A DNA stretch of 54,410 bases, from positions 1-54,410 of IMG/VR virus record IMGVR_UViG_3300044739_000092. One strand, given 5' to 3'. Below the pieces are notes generated by a model. It was given only the letters and a program-made list of their open reading frames with translations. It searched no databases and had not been told where the DNA came from. The DNA is from a virus. A program made the translations under genes and the position numbers. Shown one piece after another: positions 707 through 54,410 of this stretch. How positions within the stretch are numbered: position 1 is the first letter of the stretch; the number at the start of each line of letters is the position of its first letter.

Positions 707-1222
707 ATGCGAGTCGCCACCTGGAACGTGAACTCCGTCGGTGCCCGTCTTCCCCGGCTCCTCGACTGGCTGCGGGACGCGGTACCCGACGTCGTGTGCC
801 TGCAGGAGATCAAGTGCACGGCCGACGCGTTCCCGTACGAGGAGGTCCGCGACCTCGGCTACGAGACCGCCGCGCACGGCGACGGCCGCTGGAACGGGGT
901 GGCGATCCTGTCCCGGGTGGGGCTGGCCGAGGTCGCGGCGGGGCTGCCGGGCGACCCCGGCTACCCCACCCCCGAGACGCGGGAGGCCCGGGCCGTCGCG
1001 GCGACCTGCGGGCCGCTGCGGGTGTGGTCGGTGTACGTGCCGAACGGCCGGGAGCCCGGCCACGACCACTACGCGTACAAGCTCCGCTGGCTCGGCGCGC
1101 TCCGCGACGCGGTGGCCGGCGACGCCGCCGCGGACCGGCCCTTCGCGGTGCTCGGTGACTACAACGTGGCCCCCACCGACGACGACGTGTGGGACCCCGC
1201 CGCCTTCGTCGCCGCGCGCTAA
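707..1222 (+). pseudogene. xthA: Exonuclease III, 3'-truncated by prophage insertion
   Basis: The N-terminal 171 residues of an exonuclease III / AP endonuclease of the EEP superfamily. Visible motifs are the start TWNVNS, CLQEIK with the metal-binding Glu, WNGVAI, the YVPNG loop and GDYNVAPTDDDVWDP with the catalytic Asp and Asn. Family members run to about 260 residues and end with a second catalytic block (an Asp and the terminal SDH motif). Here the frame leaves the family after WDPAAF and stops three codons later, overlapping the integrase stop. The reading is that prophage insertion removed the C-terminal catalytic half, so this allele should be inactive unless the phage excises. The missing part should be next to attR, outside this window. 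Confidence 0.88.
1190..1222. other. attL junction (host/prophage boundary), inferred
   Basis: Similarity to exonuclease III ends at the codons for DPAAF, and the convergent serine integrase gene stops at 1219. The recombination point must lie in this short interval. Serine integrases of actinophages often cut inside protein-coding genes and leave a very short core (commonly a few bases), so the exact crossover cannot be set without the attR side. The boundary is an inference from protein homology; no repeated core is visible because the partner site is outside the window. Confidence 0.65.
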
Positions 1223-5835: not shown

Positions 5836-6278
5836 TGAGCGCCGAGACGCCCGGCACCGTAGTCCGTTACGACAGCGAGCGGCTGGATGGCTGGTGCCGC
5901 GAAGGCATGGCTGTCGCTGACGCGCAGGGCACGTTCGTCGACACGTACTGGAGCGTCGGTGTCGGCGACGACCACGTCCTCACCGCGAGCGAGGCAGCAA
6001 CCGCCCAGACCTTGTTCCACCTCGCGGCCTACCGCGAACTGCTGGACGCGGAGCGCCACTCGTGGCACAGCTACCACCCGGACGACCGGCAGGTCATCAC
6101 TTCCCAGCACGGCCTGGTGGTCCGGTACTTCGTTCGCATCGGCGCCGCGCCTGACCACGGCACGCGCGTCGAGAACGCCCGTGAAGCCGTCCTTGAAGCA
6201 GCGGAACAGGTCGAAAGCGCCCAGCGGGCACTGACCTACCGCCGCGAGGAACTGGCGCGGCTTGAGGCGACCTCGTGA
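5835..6278 (+). CDS. 147-residue protein of unknown function
   Basis: The first half is acidic with strands (VVRYDSERLDGWCREGMAV), the second ends in a coiled coil (NAREAVLEAAEQVESAQRAL). It opens MSAETPGT, nearly the same N-terminus as the gene at 8399 (MTAETPGT), hinting at copied translation-start cassettes. No function assigned. Confidence 0.6.
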   Translation: MSAETPGTVVRYDSERLDGWCREGMAVADAQGTFVDTYWSVGVGDDHVLTASEAATAQTLFHLAAYRELLDAERHSWHSYHPDDRQVITSQHGLVVRYFVRIGAAPDHGTRVENAREAVLEAAEQVESAQRALTYRREELARLEATS

Positions 6279-6592
6279 CTGCCGCGCCCATGGTGCCCCA
6301 GCGGCGCCGCACCGACACCCCACCCGTACCCCCCGCCGTCCTCCAAGACGCACTCACCGGACTCGCACGCGCCGCCGTCCACCACGACGACTCCGACCTG
6401 CTCACCATCGACGCCATCCTCGCCGTCGCCCTCCCCCACCTCACCCTCACCCAACGACACCTGCTCTTCCACGACGTGAAAGACCAAGTCGCCGCACTCG
6501 ACGACCCCGCCATCGGCACCGAAGACGACCTCGCCCGGGCAGTCGCCCAACACAACCTCGACGCCGCATTCCAGCAAGCAGGGGTGCAGTGA
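6275..6592 (+). CDS. 105-residue protein of unknown function
   Basis: A largely helical acidic protein (LQDALTGLARAAVHHDDSDL; IDAILAVALPHLTLTQRHLL). It uses CGA, CAC and CTC codons much more than the nuclease gene after it, so it may have a different history. It starts in a four-base overlap and ends in a TGATG junction before the exonuclease gene; a role with recombination genes is possible but only by position. Confidence 0.6.
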   Translation: MTAAPMVPQRRRTDTPPVPPAVLQDALTGLARAAVHHDDSDLLTIDAILAVALPHLTLTQRHLLFHDVKDQVAALDDPAIGTEDDLARAVAQHNLDAAFQQAGVQ

Positions 6593-7503
6593 TGGCCGTC
6601 TACCTCGGACAGTGGGAACCCGGATCGCCGAAGTGGCATGCCGCACGCGCCGGCCGGGTCGGCGGGTCCGACATCGCCGCCATCCTCGGCTTGTCGCCGT
6701 GGACGTCCCGGTTCTCCCTGTGGCACGAACGGAAAGGGCTGGTCCCGCAGCAGGCGGAGAAGCCGGAGATGACATGGGGCAAGCGCCTCGAACCCGTCAT
6801 CTGCGACGCCTTCCAGGAAGGGCACCCGGAGTTCACGGTGGTCCGAAAGTCCGGCGCCGTGTTCGCTCACCAACTCCGAGACTGGCAGGTCGCCTCACCG
6901 GACGCACTGCTCGCCCGGCACCAGATGCAGATGGGCGAGTCTCCGTCCGGCCTCGAAGTGAAAACAGACCGGTTCGACATCGGCTGGGGACCCACCGGCA
7001 GCGTCGAAATCCCCCTGTACTACAGGTGCCAAGTCCAGTGGTGCATGGACGTGTTCGACCTGCCCGAGTGGCACGTCGCGTTCCTGTGCTCCGGCTCCGA
7101 CTACCGCGAGTACCTGATCAAAGCCGACCCGGCAGACCAGCAGCTGATGCGCGACGCGGCCCGCGGGTTCCTCGACACGCTAGTCCGGGACGAGCGGCCG
7201 TCCATCGACGACCACGACGCCACATACGAGGCCGTCAAGGCACTGCACCCCGACATCGACACCGCCGACTTCCCCGTCCCACCCGAGCTCGCCGAGGAGT
7301 ACTGCACAGCCCGGCACAAGCTCGCCGCAGCCGAGAAGACAGCGAAGCTCGCCACCAGCCGCCTCGCCGACGCCATGGGCAACGCCCGCCGCGCCCTCCT
7401 CGGCGCACAAACAATCGCCACCCGCCAAGCACGCAACGGCGGCACCCCGTATCTCGTGGCAGGCAAGAACCTGCCCGACTTCAACTTGGAGCAGGCGTCA
7501 TGA
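6592..7503 (+). CDS. YqaJ-type phage exonuclease (lambda exo fold)
   Basis: A 303-residue nuclease of the YqaJ/lambda-exonuclease group, expected to resect dsDNA 5' ends and supply ssDNA to RecT. It shows WHAARAGRVGGSDIAAILGLSPW at residues ~15-37 (the G-x-S-D-x-A-x-x-x-G start of the family), a Glu-rich helix WGKRLEPVICDAFQE, and the metal-binding core SPDALL with LEVKT near residue 120 (Asp then E-x-K). The C-terminal third is helical with a likely coiled coil. It overlaps the RecT gene by four bases, the standard exonuclease-annealase pair. One of the most secure calls in the early region. Confidence 0.9.
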   Translation: MAVYLGQWEPGSPKWHAARAGRVGGSDIAAILGLSPWTSRFSLWHERKGLVPQQAEKPEMTWGKRLEPVICDAFQEGHPEFTVVRKSGAVFAHQLRDWQVASPDALLARHQMQMGESPSGLEVKTDRFDIGWGPTGSVEIPLYYRCQVQWCMDVFDLPEWHVAFLCSGSDYREYLIKADPADQQLMRDAARGFLDTLVRDERPSIDDHDATYEAVKALHPDIDTADFPVPPELAEEYCTARHKLAAAEKTAKLATSRLADAMGNARRALLGAQTIATRQARNGGTPYLVAGKNLPDFNLEQAS

Positions 7504-8399
7504 GCCAGTCCGTCAGCAACGCGGTCGCCACACGAGACAGCGGCCCCGCAGGACTCGTCAAGCAGTACAGCAGCGACTTCTCCAGCCTCCTCCCCTCCCA
7601 CGTCAAGCCCGACACGTGGATCAGACTCGCCGCCGGCGCGCTGAAGAGGGGCAAGCAGATCCAGACCGACCAGGGCCCCCGCTACGAGCTCGAGGTCGCC
7701 GCCGCGAACAACGTCGGCGTGTTCCTCGCCGCGCTCAAGGACGCCGCTCGCCTCGGCCTGGACCCCGGCACCGAGCAGTACTACCTCACACCCCGCAAGG
7801 AGAAGGGGCAGCTGCAGATCCTCGGGATCGTCGGCTACCAGGGCCTCGTCGAGCTGATGTACCGGGCCGGTGCCGTGTCCTCGGTGATCGTCGAGTGCGT
7901 CTACACGCACGACAGGTTCGACTACGTGCTCGGCAAGCACGACCGCCCGATCCACGAGATCAACTGGGACCTGGAGGACCGCGGTCAGCTTCGCCTCGCG
8001 TACGCGTACGCGATCATGCACGGCGGCGCGGTATCGAAGGTTGTCGTCATGAACCGGGCGGCCATCCAGCGGATCAAGGCGTCGTCGCAGGGCGCCACTT
8101 CCGAGCACTCCCCGTGGGTGAAGCACGAGCCGTCGATGTGGATGAAGTCCGCCGCCCGGCAGCTCGCGAAGTGGGTCCCCACCTCCTCGGAGTACATGCG
8201 GGAGCGGCTGAAGGTCGCCGCCGAGGTCGGTCAGGCCGAGTCCCCGGCGCCCGTGCCGGCCGGTCCGCCGATGCCCGGCTCAACCCCAGACGAGGCAGAT
8301 CGGTCGACGGGCGAGATCTTCGACGCCGAGATCGTGGACCCGCCGGCCGATCCGTGGGGCGACGTCAACGTCGCACAGCCGCCGCTGGACGGTGCGTGA
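7500..8399 (+). CDS. recT: RecT-family single-strand annealing protein
   Basis: 299 residues. The RecT core is clear: ARLGLDPGTEQYYLTPRK, LGIVGYQGLVELMYRAG, SVIVECVYTHDRFDY and HSPWVKHEPSMWMKSAARQLAKWVP. It anneals complementary single strands produced by the exonuclease coded just upstream, for phage recombination and concatemer formation. The last ~60 residues are acidic and Pro-rich (APVPAGPPMPGS, then DPPADPWGD), a disordered tail like that of SSB that may bind partners. Starts in a four-base overlap with the exonuclease gene. Confidence 0.93.
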   Translation: MSQSVSNAVATRDSGPAGLVKQYSSDFSSLLPSHVKPDTWIRLAAGALKRGKQIQTDQGPRYELEVAAANNVGVFLAALKDAARLGLDPGTEQYYLTPRKEKGQLQILGIVGYQGLVELMYRAGAVSSVIVECVYTHDRFDYVLGKHDRPIHEINWDLEDRGQLRLAYAYAIMHGGAVSKVVVMNRAAIQRIKASSQGATSEHSPWVKHEPSMWMKSAARQLAKWVPTSSEYMRERLKVAAEVGQAESPAPVPAGPPMPGSTPDEADRSTGEIFDAEIVDPPADPWGDVNVAQPPLDGA

Positions 8400-19072: not shown

Positions 19073-19354
19073 GTGACCGCATGGGCGAACAGCACCCGAG
19101 CCCAGCGCCTACCCGGCAACTGGCAGACCCTCCGCCGGCGCATCCTCGCCCGCGACAAAGGCATCTGCCAGCTGCGCCTACCTGGGTGCACACACAGGGC
19201 CACCGACGTCGACCACATCGACAACCGTGACGACCACGGAGACGGCAACCTGCAAGCCGCATGCTCCCCGTGCAACCAGGCCAAGAACCTGCTCACCCGA
19301 CCCAAGCCGCCCAGCACACGACGACCAGTCGAACAGCACCCCGGACTCAGGTAG
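19073..19354 (+). CDS. HNH endonuclease of the packaging module
   Basis: 93 residues: WQTLRRRILARDKGICQLRLPGC, TDVDHIDNRDDHGDGNL and CSPCNQAKNLLTRP. All HNH elements (two Cys pairs, DH, N, K) are present. HNH genes of this length placed immediately before the terminase genes are known to assist cos cleavage by the terminase in HK97-like phages. GTG start. Confidence 0.88.
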   Translation: MTAWANSTRAQRLPGNWQTLRRRILARDKGICQLRLPGCTHRATDVDHIDNRDDHGDGNLQAACSPCNQAKNLLTRPKPPSTRRPVEQHPGLR

Positions 19355-26500: not shown

Positions 26501-26854
26501 ATGGCGAAGCTGACGAGCACGGTCCACGTGCACCGCATGGAGAAGAACGAGCAGGGCCGCGAGTACGTGGCGGAGACGCGCGTGTTCGGGCCGGACGACA
26601 AGGTCCCGGCGGAGTGGGCGAAGCTGATCACGAACCCGGCTGCCTGGGAGGGCGGCGAGCCTCCGAAGTCCGCTGATGCCGGTGACGGCGGGCCCGCCGC
26701 GTCGGCGGATCCGAGTGCGGAGCCGCCGCGGTCGGGCAAGGGCTCCGGCGTCGAGGTGTGGCGGGCGCACGCTGCCCACCTCGGCGTGGTGGTTCCGGAG
26801 GATGCGTCGCGGGACGACATCGTCGCGGCGGTCGACGCGCACAACGCCGCCTGA
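26501..26854 (+). CDS. 117-residue head-region protein with SAP/HeH-like C-terminus
   Basis: N-terminal strands (STVHVHRMEKNEQGREYVAETRVFGP), a disordered Gly/Pro/Ser stretch, and a C-terminal helix-extension-helix (VEVWRAHAAHLGVVVPEDASRDDIVAAVDAHN), a fold often found at the end of phage head proteins. Role is not known. It follows the capsid gene by 15 bases. Confidence 0.7.
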   Translation: MAKLTSTVHVHRMEKNEQGREYVAETRVFGPDDKVPAEWAKLITNPAAWEGGEPPKSADAGDGGPAASADPSAEPPRSGKGSGVEVWRAHAAHLGVVVPEDASRDDIVAAVDAHNAA

Positions 26855-26860
26855 TCTGTC

Positions 26861-26892
26861 GCCCGGCGGGACGGGACCTGTTCCCGCCGGGC
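26861..26892 (+). terminator. Strong hairpin after the head genes
   Basis: GCCCGGCGGGA and TCCCGCCGGGC pair over 11 bp around ten bases. It starts only seven bases after the stop codon. No T-run. It is a good candidate for partial termination or 3'-end protection of the capsid mRNA. Confidence 0.7.
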
Positions 26893-34491: not shown

Positions 34492-34835
34492 TGGCCGCGG
34501 AAAAGGCACTGGCGGCTGTGCAGGCCGAGGTCGAGGCCGAGGACAACGACGGTTCGGTCGTCGTGGAGCTTGTCACCGACGACGGCGCGGAGGACATCAG
34601 CGTTCCGTCGCCGGGCAGGTGGAAGGCGCGGGCGCAGCGGATGCTCGCGCAGGGCGACTTCGACTCGTGGGCCGAGGTTGTGCTGCCCGAGGCTGACCGG
34701 GCGAAGTGGGTCGAACTCGACCCGACGAACGATGACGTGCAGGCGTTCTTCGAGAAGTGGAAGGACGTGGGCGGGCAGGACACGGGAAAATCGTCGAGCT
34801 CGCGGCGCTCCTCGAAGGGCACAGCGAGGCGGTAG
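34491..34835 (+). CDS. Tail assembly chaperone, short form
   Basis: 114 residues: ISVPSPGRWKARAQRMLAQGDFDSWAEVVL, KWVELDPTNDDVQAFFEKW. Equivalent of lambda gpG; it keeps the tape measure soluble. The short form ends with a Ser/Arg-rich stretch (TGKSSSSRRSSKG) that is read after passing the slippery site in frame. Confidence 0.9.
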   Translation: MAAEKALAAVQAEVEAEDNDGSVVVELVTDDGAEDISVPSPGRWKARAQRMLAQGDFDSWAEVVLPEADRAKWVELDPTNDDVQAFFEKWKDVGGQDTGKSSSSRRSSKGTARR

Positions 34836-45098: not shown

Positions 45099-45373
45099 GG
45101 TTCGACCTTCCTGAGTGTCACGACTGTCTCCCCGAGGGTGCCGTGGATCGGACCTTCCTCGACCACGTACAGGCCGTCGTCGCCGTGCCTGAGCTTCACG
45201 AGGTCCACCGTGTCCCCAGGTGCCAGGACCGGGGCCGCCGCATACCGTTGCAACGACTCACGCACCACACTGCTCACCGTCTCACCGTGCCTCTCCGCCT
45301 TCGCGGCAGCGGCATCCCACGTGTCATCGGGGATGCGGATGTTGTGGTTCGGCGTGTGTGAAGGGTTCGGCAC
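45095..45373 (-). CDS. Ribbon-helix-helix regulator
   Basis: 92 residues. The start HNIRIPDDTWDAAAAKAERHGETVSSVVRESLQRY is a ribbon-helix-helix DNA-binding fold (the strand HNIRIP contacts the major groove), followed by a beta-rich C-terminal part (VDLVKLRHGDDGLYVVEE). GTG start. Divergent from the membrane/FtsK operon with palindromic repeats in between, so it is the likely controller of both operons. Confidence 0.8.
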   Translation of the reverse strand: MPNPSHTPNHNIRIPDDTWDAAAAKAERHGETVSSVVRESLQRYAAAPVLAPGDTVDLVKLRHGDDGLYVVEEGPIHGTLGETVVTLRKVEP

Positions 45374-45419
45374 GCCGACATCCTCTCAGCCGACCGGCTT
45401 CCATGCCACGACCATACAG

Positions 45420-45486
45420 CGTGTACCTACACGATCAAGCATGGCACGCTCGAAAACCTGGCGCGTGTACCCACACGACGTGTACC
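45420..45486. promoter_or_regulatory. Palindromic operators between divergent accessory operons
   Basis: CGTGTA-CC-TACACG (45420-45433) is a perfect palindrome. A second, CGTGTACCCACACG (45464-45477), is one base off, and CGTGTACC recurs at 45479-45486. The spacing of 44 then 15 bases and the shared CGTGTACC mark binding sites for a dimeric regulator, most simply the ribbon-helix-helix protein coded next to them. The rest of the 122-base gap has no ORF; the last site ends nine bases before the ATG. Confidence 0.7.
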
Positions 45487-45495
45487 GTCACCGCC

Positions 45496-46221
45496 ATGAC
45501 ACAACAGTCATCAGGAGCCGTACCGGCGGTGCCGCCAACGCAGACCACCGTCGGCACGGCCCTGCCAACAGGCCGAGGCTGGGCCTACACCGGCGCCATC
45601 CTCGGCATCACCGTCTCCGTCACCGCCAACATCGCCCACGCCCGCATCCCCACCCACCCCCACACCGGTGCCGTCGCATTCGCCGCCCTCTGGCCCCTGT
45701 TCCTGTTCGTCACCATCGAAATCATGGCCCGCACCCCGTGGCCCCACCTCCACCGCTGGAAGTGGGTCCGCTTCGGCGGACTCACCATCGTCGGCGTCGT
45801 CGCAGCGATCGTGTCGTACCGGCACCAGGCCGGGCTCCTCGCCTTCTACGGCGAAGACAGACTCACCACGATCATCGGACCCTTGGCGGTGGACGGGCTA
45901 CTGCTGACAGCGACAGGCGCGCTGATCGCCACGTCACGGACACGACAGTCCACGCCAGCACCCGCCACGACCGCCACGGCTGTCACCCCCACGCCGGCGC
46001 CTGTCCGGGTCGCCCAGGACAAGGCCGCCACAGCCCCGCCACCTGTCACCACGCCCCGGCCGCCCCTGTCACCCCCCGACCAGTCCCGCGCCTACGTCGC
46101 GTCCCACCCCGACATGACACGCGACCAGCAGGCCGCCGCGCTCGGCATCTCCCCCCGCACACTCGCCCGCCACCTCGCACAGCCCACGAAGCTCACCGCC
46201 GTCAACGGAGGCACATCGTGA
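45496..46221 (+). CDS. DUF2637-like membrane protein with C-terminal HTH
   Basis: 241 residues. Four TM helices: WAYTGAILGITVSVTANIAH, AVAFAALWPLFLFVTIEIMA, GGLTIVGVVAAIVSYRHQAG, IIGPLAVDGLLLTATGAL. The pair IVSYRH...L and PLAVDGLL is the DUF2637 signature. After a Thr/Pro linker comes TRDQQAAALGISPRTLARHLA, an HTH. DUF2637 proteins are first in transfer operons of actinomycete integrative elements and plasmids, where they lie upstream of the FtsK/TraB-like gene, as here. They may serve spread through the mycelium (Spd-like). ATG nine bases after the last operator half-site. Confidence 0.8.
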   Translation: MTQQSSGAVPAVPPTQTTVGTALPTGRGWAYTGAILGITVSVTANIAHARIPTHPHTGAVAFAALWPLFLFVTIEIMARTPWPHLHRWKWVRFGGLTIVGVVAAIVSYRHQAGLLAFYGEDRLTTIIGPLAVDGLLLTATGALIATSRTRQSTPAPATTATAVTPTPAPVRVAQDKAATAPPPVTTPRPPLSPPDQSRAYVASHPDMTRDQQAAALGISPRTLARHLAQPTKLTAVNGGTS

Positions 46222-46415
46222 CCCCGACCCGCAGAGTCCTGATCTTCACTGGGGAGTGGGCGGCGATCCTCGCCTTCTGCCTTCTCCTCCTGGCGCTCTT
46301 CCTCAAGTCGGTGCCCGCCGTCTTCTGGGCACTGGGGCTGGTCGGTGTCACCATCGTCACGTCGCTGGTCGAGGAGTTCCTCCGGGGCGACGAGGAAGAG
46401 GAGGCGGCCCGATGA
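46218..46415 (+). CDS. 65-residue membrane protein
   Basis: Two hydrophobic helices (EWAAILAFCLLLLALFLKSV and VFWALGLVGVTIVTSLVEEFL), then an acidic end (GDEEEEAAR). GTG in a four-base overlap with the DUF2637 gene. Small two-TM proteins at this place resemble Spd proteins of Streptomyces plasmids by position only. Confidence 0.65.
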   Translation: MTPTRRVLIFTGEWAAILAFCLLLLALFLKSVPAVFWALGLVGVTIVTSLVEEFLRGDEEEEAAR

Positions 46416-46621
46416 TCACCGAGGCCCTCGCGATCCTGGTCCTCCTCGCTGCTGGCCTGTGGTTCGGCTACCGCGGTCGCAGCTTCTTCGCCCCGATCTG
46501 CTACATCCTGATCGGCGTCATCCTCGCGGGCGGCACGTTCACCGGGGCAGCGAGTCACGGCGGCCACATCGTCACGACCGTGGCGACCCAGCTCGCCAGC
46601 TACGTCGGGGGGAAGGCGTGA
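46412..46621 (+). CDS. 69-residue membrane protein
   Basis: Two hydrophobic segments (ALAILVLLAAGLWFGYRG; ICYILIGVILAGGTFTGAA) and a Thr/Ala-rich end. Four-base overlaps on both sides. Second small membrane protein of the same putative transfer operon. Confidence 0.65.
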   Translation: MITEALAILVLLAAGLWFGYRGRSFFAPICYILIGVILAGGTFTGAASHGGHIVTTVATQLASYVGGKA

Positions 46622-48255
46622 CCGCGCCCACCGAACCCCCCGCCCCGGCGCCCGAGGTGTCGAGGCCCCGCCCTACCGTGTCCCGGACGCCCCGCCCGTC
46701 GCGTACCAAGCGGCGGGCCATCGCCGTGCCTGTGCTCCTTGCCGGCGGTCTGCTCGCGTTGGTTGCGTCGCAGGGCGGTTGGCTGCTGCTCCTCGCGGCG
46801 GCGGGTGGTACGGCTGCGGTGGGCGGCGGCCTGTGGGTGTCGGCTCGGCGACGTGCCGGGATGCGGTCGGGTCGTGGTTCTCGTCGGCAGCAGCGGTTCC
46901 GGCGTCCTCAGCGGGCGCCGCGCCAGTTCGGCGGGTTCGCTCCCCGCCGCCCGGCCGCCGCGGGGATCCGTCACGTCGGCGGCAACGCCGGGCGCGGCAT
47001 GGGCCGGGCAGCTGGTCGCGCGGCGGGTGGTGTCGGTGCGGTCGGCCGTCGCGCTGCTGGTGCGGGCCGGGGCGCCGCGTCGCGCGTCGATGCGTCGGCT
47101 CGACGCGGCAAGCAGGCGGCCGGTTCGGTTGCGGCGTCTGGCCGGAAGAAGGCGCAGTCCGCGCTGCGGATCCCGGGCCGGTCGAGCACCGGGCGCCCCG
47201 CGAAGCCCGCGAGCTCGGCAGCTGGTCATCGGCCGTCGTTCGCCAGGGGCCGGAAGTCGGCCACGCCGCGCGCTACGGGCGCGGCGAGCAAGACCGGACG
47301 CTCGGGCCGCGGCGGCGGGTTCCGGATTCCCGGCATGTCGAGCGGCCGGACCGGTGGCCGCACTGGTGGCAGGGCAGGTGGCGGCCGGATGTTCGGCGGC
47401 AAGGCGACACCCCGCCGCGCCCCCGGCATGTCGGCCGGGCGTCTCGGCAACGCGGCGCGACGGCTCACCGGACGGACACGACCCGCCGCCGGTGCCACCC
47501 CAGGCGCCGGCACGGCACGGGCACCCGGGCAGCGCGTCCGTGGTGTTCGGGGTGTCCTCGGCCGGACACGCGGTCGGCTGACCGGACGCCCCGCGCCGAC
47601 ACGGACACGGACACGACGCAAGGTGACACCCGGCAAGACGACCCAGGCACCGACGCTGACACGGCGCGCCGCCCGCCGAGCCATGACAGCCACCCGGGCA
47701 GGTGCCCTGCGGACCGGACGCGGCACCCGATCACTCGCCCGACGCATAGCCCGCCGCCTGTGGAACGCCCCCGCCGCCGCTGTCACCGCACTCACCGGAC
47801 CCGCCTACCCCCGAACCCCGGCCGCCACCCTCGGCACCCCACCTGTCACCACCCCGGCCGCCACTGCCAGGCCGACACCGCAACTCGCCACCGCTGGAGG
47901 ACCCGCCATGTCCCACCCCGCCATCGACCCATCCGTCGAAGCCGCGAACAGCCTCGGCGGCTACGAATTCCGCCACATGAGCGACATCCGGAACTTCACC
48001 TCCGCCGCCCCCGAATCCATCGCCGCCCTCGCCGCCGCCTACGCCGCCGTCGCCAACCGGCTCGCCGACACCCCCGCCGCATCCGGTGTCGCCGAGGTGT
48101 ACTCCCAGATCGCCGGCAGCCTCTCCGCCTCCGCCGACACCGCCGGGGAAGCCTCCGGGCTCCTTGCCGCCGCGAACCAGGACGACTTCCAGCGCATCGA
48201 CAACCCCCGCCCCAACGAGGGCATGGCCGACTACGGCCCCAACGCCGCAGGCTGA
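46618..48255 (+). CDS. 545-residue basic membrane protein of the transfer operon
   Basis: N-terminal Pro-rich cytoplasmic part, two TM helices (IAVPVLLAGGLLALVASQGG and LLLLAAAGGTAAVGGGLWVS), then ~350 residues extremely rich in Arg, Gly, Ala, Pro and Ser with repeats such as RTGGRTGGRAGGG. The last 115 residues (from MSHPAIDPSVEAANSLGGYEF) are an ordinary helical domain. A DNA-coating, Arg-rich membrane protein just before an FtsK/TraB-like pump suggests a role in holding or feeding DNA. No homolog is recognised by name, though actinomycete elements often have such a protein here (SpdA/SpdB-like). An internal ATG at 47908 with a strong ribosome site may yield the helical domain alone. Confidence 0.65.
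   Translation: MTAPTEPPAPAPEVSRPRPTVSRTPRPSRTKRRAIAVPVLLAGGLLALVASQGGWLLLLAAAGGTAAVGGGLWVSARRRAGMRSGRGSRRQQRFRRPQRAPRQFGGFAPRRPAAAGIRHVGGNAGRGMGRAAGRAAGGVGAVGRRAAGAGRGAASRVDASARRGKQAAGSVAASGRKKAQSALRIPGRSSTGRPAKPASSAAGHRPSFARGRKSATPRATGAASKTGRSGRGGGFRIPGMSSGRTGGRTGGRAGGGRMFGGKATPRRAPGMSAGRLGNAARRLTGRTRPAAGATPGAGTARAPGQRVRGVRGVLGRTRGRLTGRPAPTRTRTRRKVTPGKTTQAPTLTRRAARRAMTATRAGALRTGRGTRSLARRIARRLWNAPAAAVTALTGPAYPRTPAATLGTPPVTTPAATARPTPQLATAGGPAMSHPAIDPSVEAANSLGGYEFRHMSDIRNFTSAAPESIAALAAAYAAVANRLADTPAASGVAEVYSQIAGSLSASADTAGEASGLLAAANQDDFQRIDNPRPNEGMADYGPNAAG
47908..48255 (+). CDS. Possible separate translation of the C-terminal helical domain
   Basis: In frame inside the previous gene, an ATG lies six bases after GGAGGA, much better than the start of the long gene. 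It would give a 115-residue acidic, helical protein (FTSAAPESIAALAAAYAAVA; VAEVYSQIAGSLSASADTA). This repeats the plan of phage and ICE genes in which a C-terminal domain is also made alone. Only ribosome-site quality supports it. Confidence 0.4.
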   Translation: MSHPAIDPSVEAANSLGGYEFRHMSDIRNFTSAAPESIAALAAAYAAVANRLADTPAASGVAEVYSQIAGSLSASADTAGEASGLLAAANQDDFQRIDNPRPNEGMADYGPNAAG

Positions 48256-48270
48256 GGAAGGACAACAACC

Positions 48271-50403
48271 GTGCGCGAGTCCGAACGGCAGCGGATCGTC
48301 GCCGAGGAGACCGCCGACGAATGGCCCTACGAGGCCTGGTCGAACCCCGTCAGCGCGATGCTCGGCACGTACCTCCTCGGCGTCCTGCTGCACATGGCGG
48401 ACGTGTCACCGTGGTGGCCGCTGCTGACCGGGCTCGCTGTCACCGTCACGTGGGTCGGCTGCACCGTGTCACTCGGCACCAAGGACCTTGGTGTCGGGTA
48501 CGCGGCGGCAGTGTCCCTGTCGGTGACAGGGTGGCTGACATGGGCCGCCGGACACCCGACACTCGACATCCGGAACTGGCCTGTCACCCGCGACTCGTGG
48601 TGGATCCTCGCCACCGCCACCGCCATCCTCGCCGTCGTGTGGGGTGTCCTCATCCGGCAACGCGCGAACGCTGTCGCTGACGTGGCCGACCGTCTCCGCG
48701 GTGTCACCGGACAGGGCGACAGTTGGGAAGACGCCTGCCGGCAGGCCGGGATCGCCGGCTGGGAGTACGAGTCGCAGGAGACGACACCCGGCGGCATGAA
48801 GGTGACGATGCGGATCCGCCCGGGTGGCACCACGTACCGGCAGGCCCTCGGCTCGGTGGAACGGTTGGAGTCGTGCGTCGAGGCCCCGTACCACGGCGCG
48901 GTGCGAATCGAGAAGGGCGCGAACGCCGCCCGGGCGGTCATCGTGTGGAACGAGCGGAACATGCTCGCCGAGGTCCTGCCGTACCCGGACGACATGTCGC
49001 CGACGGACATCGTGAAGCCGATGACGACCGGCATGTTCGAGGACCGCATCCCGGCGACCGTCACTTACGCGTACCGGTCGAGCCTCACCCTGGGGCAGCG
49101 GGACGGCGGCAAGAGCAACGAGAACGCGGTGAAGATCGCGAACCTCGTCCGCGCCCCCAACGTCCTCATCTGGCTGTCGTGTTTCAAGCAGGGCTCGGCC
49201 GCGAAGCCGTGGCTGGCCCCGTACGCCGCCGGGCAGGCCGCCGCGCCCGCCCTCGACTGGGTGACCGTGTGCACCCCCGCCGACATGGCTGGTGTTGAAG
49301 CGCAACTCGACGCGCTCGACCGGATCGGGAACGAACGCGCCCGACGGCGCACCAGCGACAAGATCGTGCCCACCCCGGAGCAGCCCGCGATCCGCCTCAA
49401 CATCGACGAAATCGCCGACCTGCTGGCCGACCCGCGGAACTACCGCATCGCCGCGAAACTCGTCCTCGTCCTGCGTAAGCACAGGTCAGAGGGCATCGAC
49501 CTTGATCTTGCTTCCCAGCGGGGCACCATGTCGTTCCTCGGACAGTGGGCCCGCGACATCGCCTCCCAGGTCAGCATCGTCAACGTGTTCAAGGTCGACA
49601 ACCCCGCCGAGGTGTGGAACGCCCTCGGCTTGGACCGGTCCCGGATCGGCGGCATCGACCCGTCCACATTCGAGTACCAGGGCACGATGCTCACCGTGGC
49701 GCCCGGCGCCCGGATCGCGCCGCAGAAGGTGTTCCGCATCAACCACGACGACCCCCTCGCCGTCCCCAAGCTGGCGGCTGCCGGCGCCGCGCACCGGCCC
49801 CAGCTCGAGCAGTCGGCTGTGGCGGCGGCGGGGCCGCAGTACGCGCGCCGTTGGCAGACCGACCAGGTCCGGGCCCTGCTGGTGGATGCGGCGCGGATCG
49901 TCGGCGGCCAGTATCAGCCCGCGCACGTTCCCGCCGTCGGCCACGCGACCGTCCCCGCCTCGGTCCCCGTGCAGGTGGCGGGTCCGCCGCGGTTGCGTGC
50001 CGTGCCGTACCTCGACCCCACCAGCAGCGTCCCCGTCGAACGGCAACTCGGCCTCCACAAGATCGACGGCCGGCAGATCCTCGTTGACCAGTTCGGGCCG
50101 GTGGAGGGCGAGAAGGCGTGGCAGTTCGCGCAGGGCTACAACCTGCTCGTCGAGGCCCGCCGGATCCTCGCCGCCACCCCCGACCGGGCGTTGCCGACGC
50201 GGGACCTCCTCGACCAGTTGGCGTTGCGGCCGAAGTGGGACGGGCTCACCCCGGAACGCCTCGCCGAGCTCGTCCGCCCGCACGGCGTGAGGCCTGACCA
50301 GCTGGGGGCGTCGCGGTTCCCGGGGAACCCGCGCGGCTACCGCCTCTCCAGCGTCGAGGAGGCGCTGCGGCAGCCCGCCGAGGACTCCCCGACACCGGCG
50401 TAG
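48271..50403 (+). CDS. FtsK/TraB-like DNA translocase of conjugative-element type
   Basis: 710 residues. Four N-terminal TM helices (AMLGTYLLGVLLHMADVSPW; LLTGLAVTVTWVGCTV; YAAAVSLSVTGWLTWAAG; WWILATATAILAVVWGVLI). The FtsK/HerA ATPase has GQRDGGKS (275-282, a full Walker A) and AIRLNIDEIADLL (Walker B, near 370). The C-terminal part has two helical segments and a winged-helix-like end (RRILAATPDRALPTRDLLDQL, PERLAELVRPHGVRPDQLG, GYRLSSVEEAL), in the place of the FtsK gamma/TraB wHTH that reads DNA repeats. Length and layout fit TraB/Tra of Streptomyces plasmids and AICEs, which move double-stranded DNA between cells with this one protein. The 8-mer repeats just after the stop support that. 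AGGAAGGA ribosome site; GTG start. Confidence 0.82.
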   Translation: MRESERQRIVAEETADEWPYEAWSNPVSAMLGTYLLGVLLHMADVSPWWPLLTGLAVTVTWVGCTVSLGTKDLGVGYAAAVSLSVTGWLTWAAGHPTLDIRNWPVTRDSWWILATATAILAVVWGVLIRQRANAVADVADRLRGVTGQGDSWEDACRQAGIAGWEYESQETTPGGMKVTMRIRPGGTTYRQALGSVERLESCVEAPYHGAVRIEKGANAARAVIVWNERNMLAEVLPYPDDMSPTDIVKPMTTGMFEDRIPATVTYAYRSSLTLGQRDGGKSNENAVKIANLVRAPNVLIWLSCFKQGSAAKPWLAPYAAGQAAAPALDWVTVCTPADMAGVEAQLDALDRIGNERARRRTSDKIVPTPEQPAIRLNIDEIADLLADPRNYRIAAKLVLVLRKHRSEGIDLDLASQRGTMSFLGQWARDIASQVSIVNVFKVDNPAEVWNALGLDRSRIGGIDPSTFEYQGTMLTVAPGARIAPQKVFRINHDDPLAVPKLAAAGAAHRPQLEQSAVAAAGPQYARRWQTDQVRALLVDAARIVGGQYQPAHVPAVGHATVPASVPVQVAGPPRLRAVPYLDPTSSVPVERQLGLHKIDGRQILVDQFGPVEGEKAWQFAQGYNLLVEARRILAATPDRALPTRDLLDQLALRPKWDGLTPERLAELVRPHGVRPDQLGASRFPGNPRGYRLSSVEEALRQPAEDSPTPA

Positions 50404-50546: not shown

Positions 50547-51149
50547 GTGGCTCGGAGACGTCGTTCCAGACGGCGCCGCAGTGACGCGAGGGTGGTGCTC
50601 GCCCTGGGCGGTCTGATGGCCGTGTACTGGGGTCTGTTGCAGGCGTACCGGTGGGTGCTCGGGCACCGGGTCACAGCGGCCGGGATTGGCGCCGGGGTGG
50701 TGGCCGTCGGCGTGTTCGCGTTGCGGGTGTGGTGGCGTCGTCGTCGCGGCCGGAGGGCGGCGGTGCGGCGTCTGGCCTCGTTGGGTGATGGGACGGGGAA
50801 GGCCGCGGAGGAGCTGGTCGCCGAGTTGCTGCGCCGGGACGGTTGCACCGGCGTGGAGGTGCGCGGCGGGGGTGGTGATCTGGGTGCGGATGTGACGGGG
50901 ATGTTGCCGGGTGGTGGCCGGGTTGTGGTGCAGGTGAAGGACTACGCGAAGCCGATCGGTAGCCCGGCGTTGCAGACGTTCAATGGGACGTGTTGGGCGG
51001 AGCATGGGGCGGATGTGGCGGTGTTCGTGACGACGTCCAGCTTCACCAGTGCCGCGGTGGCGTTCGCTGGCCGGTCGGGTATCGAGTTGGTGGATGGGGC
51101 TGGGTTGGCGGCGTGGATGGGCGGGGAGTCGATGGGCTCGGCGGCGTGA
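50547..51149 (+). CDS. Membrane-anchored Mrr-like restriction endonuclease
   Basis: 200 residues. A very basic N-terminus, two TM helices (VVLALGGLMAVYWGLLQAY; AAGIGAGVVAVGVFALRVWW), then a Mrr_cat-type nuclease: GKAAEELVAELLRRDG with Glu, GGGDLGADVTGML with the catalytic Asp, RVVVQVKDYAKPIGSPALQTFNG with Q-x-K. Similar membrane Mrr-like proteins are widespread in actinomycetes. It would cleave DNA close to the membrane, for instance unprotected DNA entering by conjugation or phage injection. It directly follows the clt-like array. GTG start with GAAGGGGGG before it. Confidence 0.8.
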   Translation: MARRRRSRRRRSDARVVLALGGLMAVYWGLLQAYRWVLGHRVTAAGIGAGVVAVGVFALRVWWRRRRGRRAAVRRLASLGDGTGKAAEELVAELLRRDGCTGVEVRGGGGDLGADVTGMLPGGGRVVVQVKDYAKPIGSPALQTFNGTCWAEHGADVAVFVTTSSFTSAAVAFAGRSGIELVDGAGLAAWMGGESMGSAA

Positions 51150-52344: not shown

Positions 52345-52853
52345 GCGGGCAAGCCTGGCCGACCCGCGAGGAGGTCGCGCAGGTGCTCGACTTCGACGAC
52401 TTCCCGAGCGGCGTGGCCCTGGAACTGATCGCGGCTCAGGTGGCGGCGCGGGAGAAGGCGGCAGCCGAGAAGGCATGCGAGACCGCGCGGGGCGAGGTCG
52501 AACGTCTGCGCGCCAGGCTTGCCCAGGCGACGGTGTTCACCCTGCTGCCGGACACCTCCCCGTACCCACCGCACCAGGACATCCACACCTGGGGCATCCG
52601 TGTGGAGCAGCGCGGCCCCGATTCGTGGGCCGTGGTTGAAAGGTCCTGGTGTCTCGACCGGGACGGCCACCGCGAGTACGAGTCGACGCCATCCGAGCGA
52701 ACAGACGACTTCAAGGCCAGATTCCGGTTCACCCTCGATGACGCATTCGACATCGCCGAGCGGGCACTGCCTAACATCCGGATCAACGGCGCGACAGCAG
52801 TCGAGGCAGCCGCGTGGGTTGCCGCCAGACAGGCCAGGGACCCGCGCGCATAA
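52341..52853 (+). CDS. 170-residue protein of unknown function
   Basis: A helical N-terminus (REEVAQVLDFDDFPSGVALELIAAQ; coiled coil AREKAAAEKACETARGEVE), then a beta part with WGIRVEQRGPDSWAVVERSW and a helix TLDDAFDIAERALPNIRING. The second half resembles short phage proteins that begin in the same way without the coiled coil. No function known. Confidence 0.6.
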   Translation: MSGQAWPTREEVAQVLDFDDFPSGVALELIAAQVAAREKAAAEKACETARGEVERLRARLAQATVFTLLPDTSPYPPHQDIHTWGIRVEQRGPDSWAVVERSWCLDRDGHREYESTPSERTDDFKARFRFTLDDAFDIAERALPNIRINGATAVEAAAWVAARQARDPRA

Positions 52854-52916
52854 CGCCCGCCTCAGGTGCTGCCGGTGATCGCTTACGAGAACTTGGCTTC
52901 CGGGTATCAGTGGAGT

Positions 52917-52937
52917 CACATAAGATAGGATTATGTG
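52917..52937. promoter_or_regulatory. AT-rich palindromic operator before the tyrosine recombinase
   Basis: CACATAA-GATAGGA-TTATGTG, seven perfect pairs around seven bases, in a locally AT-rich stretch unlike its surroundings. It ends 16 bases before the recombinase GTG, and possible -10 hexamers (TAAGAT, TAGGAT) overlap it. It looks like a site where a dimeric repressor would block the recombinase promoter. The 100-base gap holds no ORF. Confidence 0.65.
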
Positions 52938-52953
52938 GACCTAGGGGGACTCC

Positions 52954-53982
52954 GTGGAAGACCTGGACGCTGAACTGCTCCCCGCGGTACCCGACGCACC
53001 CCCAGGAAACATCGTCCACGCGGGGGAAATCGAGCGGGCCAACCGCTACCTCAAGCGCGCCAAGTCCGACGCCACCCACGGCGCCTACGCCCAGGACTGG
53101 GCCCGGTGGACAGAGTGGTGCGCCGAAACCGGCCGCGACCCAGGCGTCCCCGCGGACCCGTTCGCGGTCGTCGCCTACGTCACCGCTCTCGCCGACGCAG
53201 GCTCCCCGCCCTCCACGATCCTGCGCCGACTGTCCGGACTCGGATACGAACACCGTCGCCGCGGCCACGACTCCCCCGCCCGGCACCCCGCCGTGTCCGA
53301 GGTCATGTCCGGAATCCGCAACGTCGCCGCCGACGGCGGCCACCGCACCCGCCAGGCCGCCCCCCTCGACACCGCCACCGTGCGACTGCTCGTAGAGGAC
53401 ATGCCCACCGGACTGGCCGGCGCCAGAGACCGGGCCATGCTCCTCCTCGGCTACGGACTCGGACTCCGGTCACGGGAGATCGTCCGCCTCAGCGTCCGAG
53501 ACATCACCGACATCGGAGCCGGGGGCGTCGAAGTCTTCATCGCGCAGTCGAAGACCGACCAGGGAGGCGCCGGAGTCACGCTGGCCCTCCCCCGGTCACC
53601 GCGGGAATCCACCTGCCCAGCCCGCGCAGTCCTCGCGTGGATCGAGGCCGCCCAGCTCACCGACGGGCCGCTGTTCCGCAACATCGACCGACACGGCAAC
53701 CTCGTCCCGCCCGGACTGGACAGCCGCGGACGTCACCGCGGCGACCGGATGGCCCGAGAGTCGGTCGGCCGGATCATCCACCGCGCCTGCCTGAACGCCG
53801 GGATCCTGTCCGGAGGATTCTCCGCTCACTCGCTGCGGCGCGGCTTCGCGACCACGGCGTACCGCATCGGCAAGGACGAGAAGGAGATCAGCCGCACCGG
53901 CAGATGGCGCCACCTGCCCACCCAGCGCCGATACGACGCGAGCAGCCGGTGGGAGAAACCAGCTGGCGGACTGGACCTGTAG
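52954..53982 (+). CDS. Tyrosine recombinase
   Basis: 342 residues. SAM-like N-terminal domain (YLKRAKSDATHGAYAQDWARWTEWC, VAYVTALADAGSPPSTILRRLSGL). Catalytic residues: Arg in GLGLRSREIVRL (near 175), Lys in QSKTDQ, H-S-L-R-R in the HxxR motif, W/H in GRWRHLP and Tyr in QRRYD. All six are present. Its tail is short. It is most similar in outline to actinomycete plasmid/transposon integrases, not to arm-binding phage integrases, since it lacks an N-terminal arm-type domain. It gives the element a second recombination enzyme besides the serine integrase. GTG after AGGGGGA; four-base... the stop shares a base with the next start (TAGTG). Confidence 0.92.
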   Translation: MEDLDAELLPAVPDAPPGNIVHAGEIERANRYLKRAKSDATHGAYAQDWARWTEWCAETGRDPGVPADPFAVVAYVTALADAGSPPSTILRRLSGLGYEHRRRGHDSPARHPAVSEVMSGIRNVAADGGHRTRQAAPLDTATVRLLVEDMPTGLAGARDRAMLLLGYGLGLRSREIVRLSVRDITDIGAGGVEVFIAQSKTDQGGAGVTLALPRSPRESTCPARAVLAWIEAAQLTDGPLFRNIDRHGNLVPPGLDSRGRHRGDRMARESVGRIIHRACLNAGILSGGFSAHSLRRGFATTAYRIGKDEKEISRTGRWRHLPTQRRYDASSRWEKPAGGLDL

Positions 53983-54410
53983 TGAGCGACCTGGACCCGG
54001 ACGTACCCGCGTGCTGGTCGTGGCCCATCCACCCGGAGGACCGAGCGAGCGTCGCGAAGAACGGCACCGAAGGGCTCCGGCGGTGGCACACGTGGACGTG
54101 CGGGCTGTGCGGGAAGGCGAGTCTTCCGCTACGGGGTATCCGGACCGACGAGCTGGTGCTCGACCACGATCACGACACCGGACTCGCCCGGGGCTACCTG
54201 TGCCGGTCCTGCAACCGGCGAGAGACGTACGGGCGCGGCGCATTCGACCTGTGGCGTAGCTGTCCGTCCGCGGCGCTGTTCGGGCTGATCTTCGAGTACG
54301 ACCTGCCGCAGTTACAGGCGTCCGACTACGACGTGGCGGCGACGGTCGGGTCGTGGACCCAGTTCCCGCGCCGGCCGTCCCCGTGGGAACGGTTGCGGGA
54401 GGTGGGTTAG
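53982..54410 (+). CDS. Recombination endonuclease VII-like HNH nuclease
   Basis: 142 residues. TWTCGLCGKASLPL, LVLDHDHDTGLARGYLCRSCNRRE is the T4 endonuclease VII core (Cys4 zinc and the DHDH-x-T...N active site), followed by a helical region ending ERLREVG. These enzymes resolve branched DNA. It is coupled to the tyrosine recombinase gene. The gene is complete and its TAG is the last codon of the window. Confidence 0.88.
   Translation: MSDLDPDVPACWSWPIHPEDRASVAKNGTEGLRRWHTWTCGLCGKASLPLRGIRTDELVLDHDHDTGLARGYLCRSCNRRETYGRGAFDLWRSCPSAALFGLIFEYDLPQLQASDYDVAATVGSWTQFPRRPSPWERLREVG

Follow-up and report, generated by a model that had tools for sequence, protein, structure and literature searches.

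The phage genome analysed here carries, in addition to a serine integrase, a second, intact recombination system in which a Cre-like tyrosine recombinase is accompanied by a probable lox-like site. The analysed stretch, referred to as the window, is the complete virus record IMGVR_UViG_3300044739_000092 (54,410 bases), and its sequence identifies it as the provirus of an actinobacterial tailed phage inside the exodeoxyribonuclease III (exoIII) gene of the host. Both systems belong to the phage itself, and we consider it reasonably probable that the serine integrase serves for integration and the Cre-like enzyme with its lox-like site for making monomer circles, helped by the nuclease encoded next to it. 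The features are listed in the table.

Table. Features of the window that concern the two recombination systems.
Feature	Position	Strand	Basis
Host exodeoxyribonuclease III-like gene that contains attB and is truncated by the provirus	707..1222	+	Pfam Exo_endo_phos
attL, where host exoIII meets phage DNA	1192..1228	.	Alignment with L003 attP 7983-8026; truncated exoIII
Serine integrase, 485 aa	1219..2676	-	phrog_95, E 6e-77; Pfam Resolvase and Zn_ribbon_recom
FtsK/SpoIIIE-like DNA translocase, same right-hand region	48271..50403	+	phrog_31069
Putative lox-like site, CACATAA-GATAGGA-TTATGTG	52917..52937	.	Perfect inverted repeat; position as in relatives
Cre-like tyrosine recombinase, 342 aa	52954..53982	+	Pfam/PHROGs; PDB search; catalytic residues
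Endonuclease VII-like nuclease	53982..54410	+	Pfam Endonuclease_7; DHDHDTGLARGYLCRSC motif
Start of attR: left arm (GTGGGTTAG) of the site used by the serine integrase	54402..54410	.	Same as L003 attP left arm (7983)

Bases 1 to about 1200 are host DNA, with a methyltransferase gene and the exoIII-like gene, which covers positions 1-167 of the 225 of its Pfam profile, is then broken off and has its stop codon within phage DNA. The serine integrase gene comes immediately after it. The truncation could affect DNA repair in the host. Both ends of the window are gene ends, as in trimmed proviruses, with the methyltransferase start codon at the left and the nuclease stop codon at the right. The attP of the related locus L003, which belongs to the 42,634-base record G001, reads GTGGGTTAG...CTAACCCAC. 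Its right arm occurs in the window once, at 1219, and its left arm also once, as the last nine bases, so the record spans the provirus almost exactly. Both attL and attR can thus be derived from an attP beside the integrase, as in serine-integrase prophages, attR being known by its left arm alone as the record ends there. The placement of the arms also implies that in the unintegrated phage the two recombinases adjoin across attP. The right-hand end that the initial annotation gave the element holds up, and it represents attR of the serine integrase provirus.

The recombinase gene runs from a GTG start to a TAG stop, and its product matches Pfam Phage_integrase (E 3.3e-13). The catalytic residues R172, K200, H292, R295, W318 and Y327 are all in place, bearing out the earlier description of a complete tyrosine recombinase, and R172, K200, H292, R295 and Y327 are invariant across 15 aligned sequences. 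All 17 sequences found below E 0.001 in a PDB search were Cre or Tre recombinase, the best match being Cre (E 1.2e-21, residues 49-323). By its homology to these structures and by its catalytic residues, the enzyme is classified as Cre-like. The XerC and XerD equivalog models scored 41-49 bits against cut-offs of 330-335. Matches were found in 28 phage records, where P1-type Cre and Streptomyces phage ZL12 are prominent, and in 2,825 plasmid records, all with less than 60% identity. The viral contigs contained a single close relative, that of L003 (99% identity), and the genome collection distant relatives only (31-35% identity).

The palindrome upstream of this gene is a perfect 7-bp inverted repeat with seven bases between the arms (nine in the ATA register), 16 bp before the recombinase start. 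The window holds one instance of arms of at least 6 bp ending in ATA/TAT with a spacing of 8-9 bp, against none in 60 Markov simulations of it, and this is the one lox-like site in the 54 kb. Among viral contigs the exact 21-bp palindrome was present in the relative L003 only, an identity that carries no information, since the two sequences agree at 98% throughout the block. A test for 10-bp arms, passed by many homologues, was negative for the window palindrome, and a spacing of 7 (or 9) bp cannot give the 8-bp symmetric spacer of loxP. The strict lox definition in PMC4957104 comprises 34 bp, with 13-bp arms containing at most two mismatches and an 8-bp spacer; with 7-bp arms and an odd spacing, the window palindrome falls outside it. 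The definition that applies to the recombinase family, a palindrome with inner ATA/TAT and a spacing of 8-9 bp close upstream of the gene, does describe it. The site is therefore named lox-like, given its short arms and its departure from the strict loxP architecture.

Upstream regions of related recombinase genes had been fetched before the motif was noticed in them as palindromes with arms ending in ATA/TAT and 8 or 9 bases between. Under a fixed rule (arms matching perfectly over 5 bp or more, ATA/TAT at their inner ends, spacing of 8-9, start at most 120 bp upstream of the gene or 20 bp into it), 12 of 27 related recombinase genes had a lox-like palindrome a short distance upstream. These were 6 of the 14 genes of the discovery set and 6 of 13 among loci fetched after the motif had been fixed. 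The other 15 homologues have no such site within 120 bp upstream. Carriers in the later set come from Streptomyces cellulosae, Nocardiopsis, Pseudomonas hygromyciniae, Sinorhizobium, Pseudosulfitobacter and Hymenobacter qilianensis; the Hymenobacter site has perfect arms of 14 bp. The background in the surveyed loci was four sites per 109 kb (0.5% per 140-base window), and the binomial p for 6/13 is 3e-11, a value that overstates independence because the set is made up of relatives. Sites beyond 120 bp, at -549 in L017 and at -350 in L033, were scored as background, a choice that works against the lox-like reading. The count of 27 omits the window, L003 (a 98% copy), P1 (whose record begins within lox), L018 (without annotation), and L004-L007 and L039-L041 (without an annotated start). 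When the omitted loci were scanned apart, L004 showed a single site with 10-bp arms, about 0.9 kb upstream, L041 one site (its record is as long as the plasmid of L033), L007 one downstream of its match and L040 one far downstream; L039, L005, L006 and L018 had no lox-like site.

Four actinobacterial lox-like sites (L016, L033, L035 and L036) have the 8-base spacer AGCTCACA in common, which is kept although three of these recombinases are only 50-82% identical to that of ZL12. The Pseudomonas spacer is AGCTCAGT, and the right half of the annotated P1 lox starts with ACAT-TATACG, with the inner TAT of the lox-like sites. The window site falls in an ATAA-N7-TTAT class together with those of Alicyclobacillus, Bradyrhizobium, Hymenobacter, Sinorhizobium and Pseudosulfitobacter.

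Judged by this positional evidence across the family, the palindrome is more probably a site at which the Cre-like enzyme recombines DNA than a simple operator, and it may possibly also serve autoregulation, with the enzyme binding near the start codon. The initial annotation had described a TTATGTG palindrome over the promoter, an AT-rich operator of the two genes. The palindrome stands as a perfect 7-bp repeat, whereas the promoter lacks support, since a sigma-70 scan of 52800-54410 returned none, and operator is probably too narrow a term given the family-wide position. A pure operator, bound by the recombinase or by a phage repressor, with the real recombination site elsewhere or lost, would be consistent with the closeness of the palindrome to the start codon, with its short arms and with the TAGGAT between them, which we take to resemble an actinobacterial -10 box. 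We nevertheless regard this as unlikely, since the same architecture precedes related recombinases in unrelated plasmids, the scan found no sigma-70 promoter there, and the experimentally proven Cre-type sites in PMC4957104 also lie near their genes.

The GTG of the nuclease gene overlaps the recombinase stop codon by one base (53982). Its product matches Endonuclease_7 with E 6.7e-10 and 39.2 bits, above the cut-off of 23.6, and the DHDHDTGLARGYLCRSC motif has the same form in ZL12. These data agree with the earlier view of an endonuclease VII coupled to the recombinase, its Holliday-junction activity being a prediction. An EndoVII gene 3' of the Cre-like gene was found only in the window and G001 and in ZL12. 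EndoVII was thus rejected as a general partner of Cre-like enzymes, since a Pfam search of the downstream genes at other Cre-like loci recovered it in ZL12 only: the Sphingobium neighbour, annotated as GIY-YIG, scores under the cut-off, and the genes after the remaining Cre-like genes gave nothing convincing.

Record G001 holds, in one stretch, the lox-like site, the recombinase, EndoVII, about 0.5 kb of further sequence, attP and the same serine integrase. Comparison with the window by blastn showed 97.7% identity over 52881-54387 and 95.5% over the integrase block (1196-2661), and the remaining blocks longer than 250 bases are 77-90% identical. The conserved block begins 36 bases to the left of the palindrome, and the comparison suggests that the lox-like site, the recombinase, the nuclease, attP and the integrase may move as one unit. 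The idea of a composite of two mobile elements is contradicted by this arrangement and by the right end of the window, which is an attachment arm of the serine integrase. We consider it extremely improbable that the recombinase and nuclease come from a separate element starting to the right of the window: the pair does lie within the last 1.5 kb of the record, but the window ends in the serine integrase arm, and attP and the same integrase come after the pair in G001. An attachment pair assigning the recombinase to an unrelated right-hand element had been named as the finding that would speak for such an origin, and the opposite was found at 54402-54410. Between EndoVII and attP, L003 has a small frame (7501-8043, minus strand) that looks DNA-binding-like by eye, and G001 contains a 162-bp inverted repeat (26729-26889 and 34666-34826, 89.5% identical).

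We also compared 13 terminase-related virus records, that is 12 of the 26 terminase relatives plus L003, several of them fragments. A Cre-like enzyme was found in two (G001 and G005), the other 11 being without a match, and a serine recombinase in two (G001 and G011). G005 thus has the Cre-like enzyme without a serine recombinase, and its sole lox-like site, in the 58 of 70 kb examined, lies about 0.9 kb upstream of the Cre-like gene. Beside that site there is another small frame, DNA-binding-like by eye (L137, 15598-15816, minus strand).

In the mechanism that we propose, the serine integrase would insert the phage at the host exoIII gene and remove it from there. The Cre-like enzyme would most likely act on the lox-like sites of phage DNA in tandem or terminally redundant form and recombine them to give monomer circles, and the single circles would then be available to the serine integrase or to replication. 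Multimers could be generated by the RecE-like exonuclease and the RecT-like annealing protein, whose genes adjoin at 6262-8399 of the window, and the EndoVII-like nuclease would probably clear branched or Holliday-junction DNA of the same phase. With only one site, a monomer can undergo neither inversion nor deletion, but multimers can be resolved and terminally redundant DNA can be circularized, which makes the monomer-circle role likely; the single lox-like site of the window fits these reactions and not a second integration. Thus, of the division of labour proposed in the initial annotation, integration versus dimer resolution is favoured by the Cre-like enzyme, the integrase-owned ends and the single site, and the idea of a second insertion site is not. 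The genes, the attachment sites, the presence of both systems in one phage and the statistical association of the palindrome with the recombinase family are observed; recombination at the palindrome, monomer formation as its purpose and a part for the nuclease are inferred. More tentatively, and with less confidence than in the role itself, the site, the Cre-like enzyme, EndoVII, attP and the serine integrase might form an exchangeable two-recombinase cassette, whose Cre-like enzyme would belong to a widespread branch using ATAA-N7-TTAT cores instead of the 8-bp spacer of loxP, and in which the monomer circle made by the Cre-like enzyme would be inserted by the integrase.

A function of the recombinase as a second integrase, inserting at another chromosomal site or at the host dif, seems to us very unlikely. 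The ATAA-N-TTATGT core does resemble the suggested F. alni (Frankia) dif, with TTATGT similar to the XerD arm (PMC3025954), but the serine integrase accounts for the ends of the provirus, the likeness of the two arms fits one enzyme and not XerC plus XerD, and the Xer models stay far below their cut-offs near 330. The pair might also be a relic of a plasmid-phage ancestor, with little present use in an integrating phage. ZL12, extrachromosomal according to PMC7157519, has the same pair, the window has no ParA gene, and 11 of the 13 terminase-related records, several of them fragments, have no Cre-like match. Both genes are intact, however, and their block is 98% identical between two phages that have diverged elsewhere, and we hold a relic to be improbable.

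Other genes bear on the monomer-circle role. A ParA partition gene (PF13614) is absent from the window (G000), G001 and G005, which leaves the window outside the phage-plasmid definition, and without ParA there is no sign of a plasmid state in which dimers would have to be resolved. HNH genes near the terminase are associated with cos packaging, and a weak HNH match near the terminase of the window (19073-19351) might mean cos packaging, in which case circularization by Cre would be unnecessary. The FtsK-like translocase shares about 25% identity with proteins encoded by Streptomyces plasmids and by a few actinophages, and its joint action with the recombinase is hypothetical. After its gene lies that of an Mrr-type endonuclease (50547-51149), and upstream of it (45220-48255) are a weak DUF2637-like frame and a long frame without a family match (46345-48255), both conserved in G001.

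In the titles and abstracts of the open-access literature we found no description of this two-recombinase combination. If our reading is correct, a temperate phage splits the handling of its DNA between two unrelated recombinases, and the upstream-palindrome rule would locate the targets of many uncharacterised Cre-like enzymes, including a differently spaced class. New recombinase/site pairs would also become available as candidates, and the reason why an integrating phage retains Cre-like resolution could be tested directly.

Among known systems, XerCD/dif shares the ATAA...TTATGT core with the window site and differs in the weak model scores, the symmetric arms and the single, phage-borne enzyme of the window. 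Cre/loxP of P1 agrees with the window system in recombinase length, domain order, catalytic residues, the inner TAT of lox and the location of the site near the gene; the recombinases are 29-31% identical, and the window site has 7-bp arms and an odd spacing. The P1 prophage is a plasmid, whereas the window phage is integrated by its serine integrase. The Cre-like recombinases of Sphingobium, Bradyrhizobium, Sinorhizobium, Hymenobacter and Alicyclobacillus plasmids are 29-37% identical to that of the window and are also preceded by lox-like palindromes, several of them with the ATAA-N7-TTAT spacing; their arms are 8-14 bp long, mostly tccgATA, and no EndoVII was found after them. The Streptomyces plasmid-phage ZL12 has the same order, a Cre-like gene and then EndoVII (pZL12.36c and 35c), with a lox-like palindrome 25 bp upstream, and differs in its recombinase (31-34% identity) and in a short gap between the two genes, which overlap in the window.
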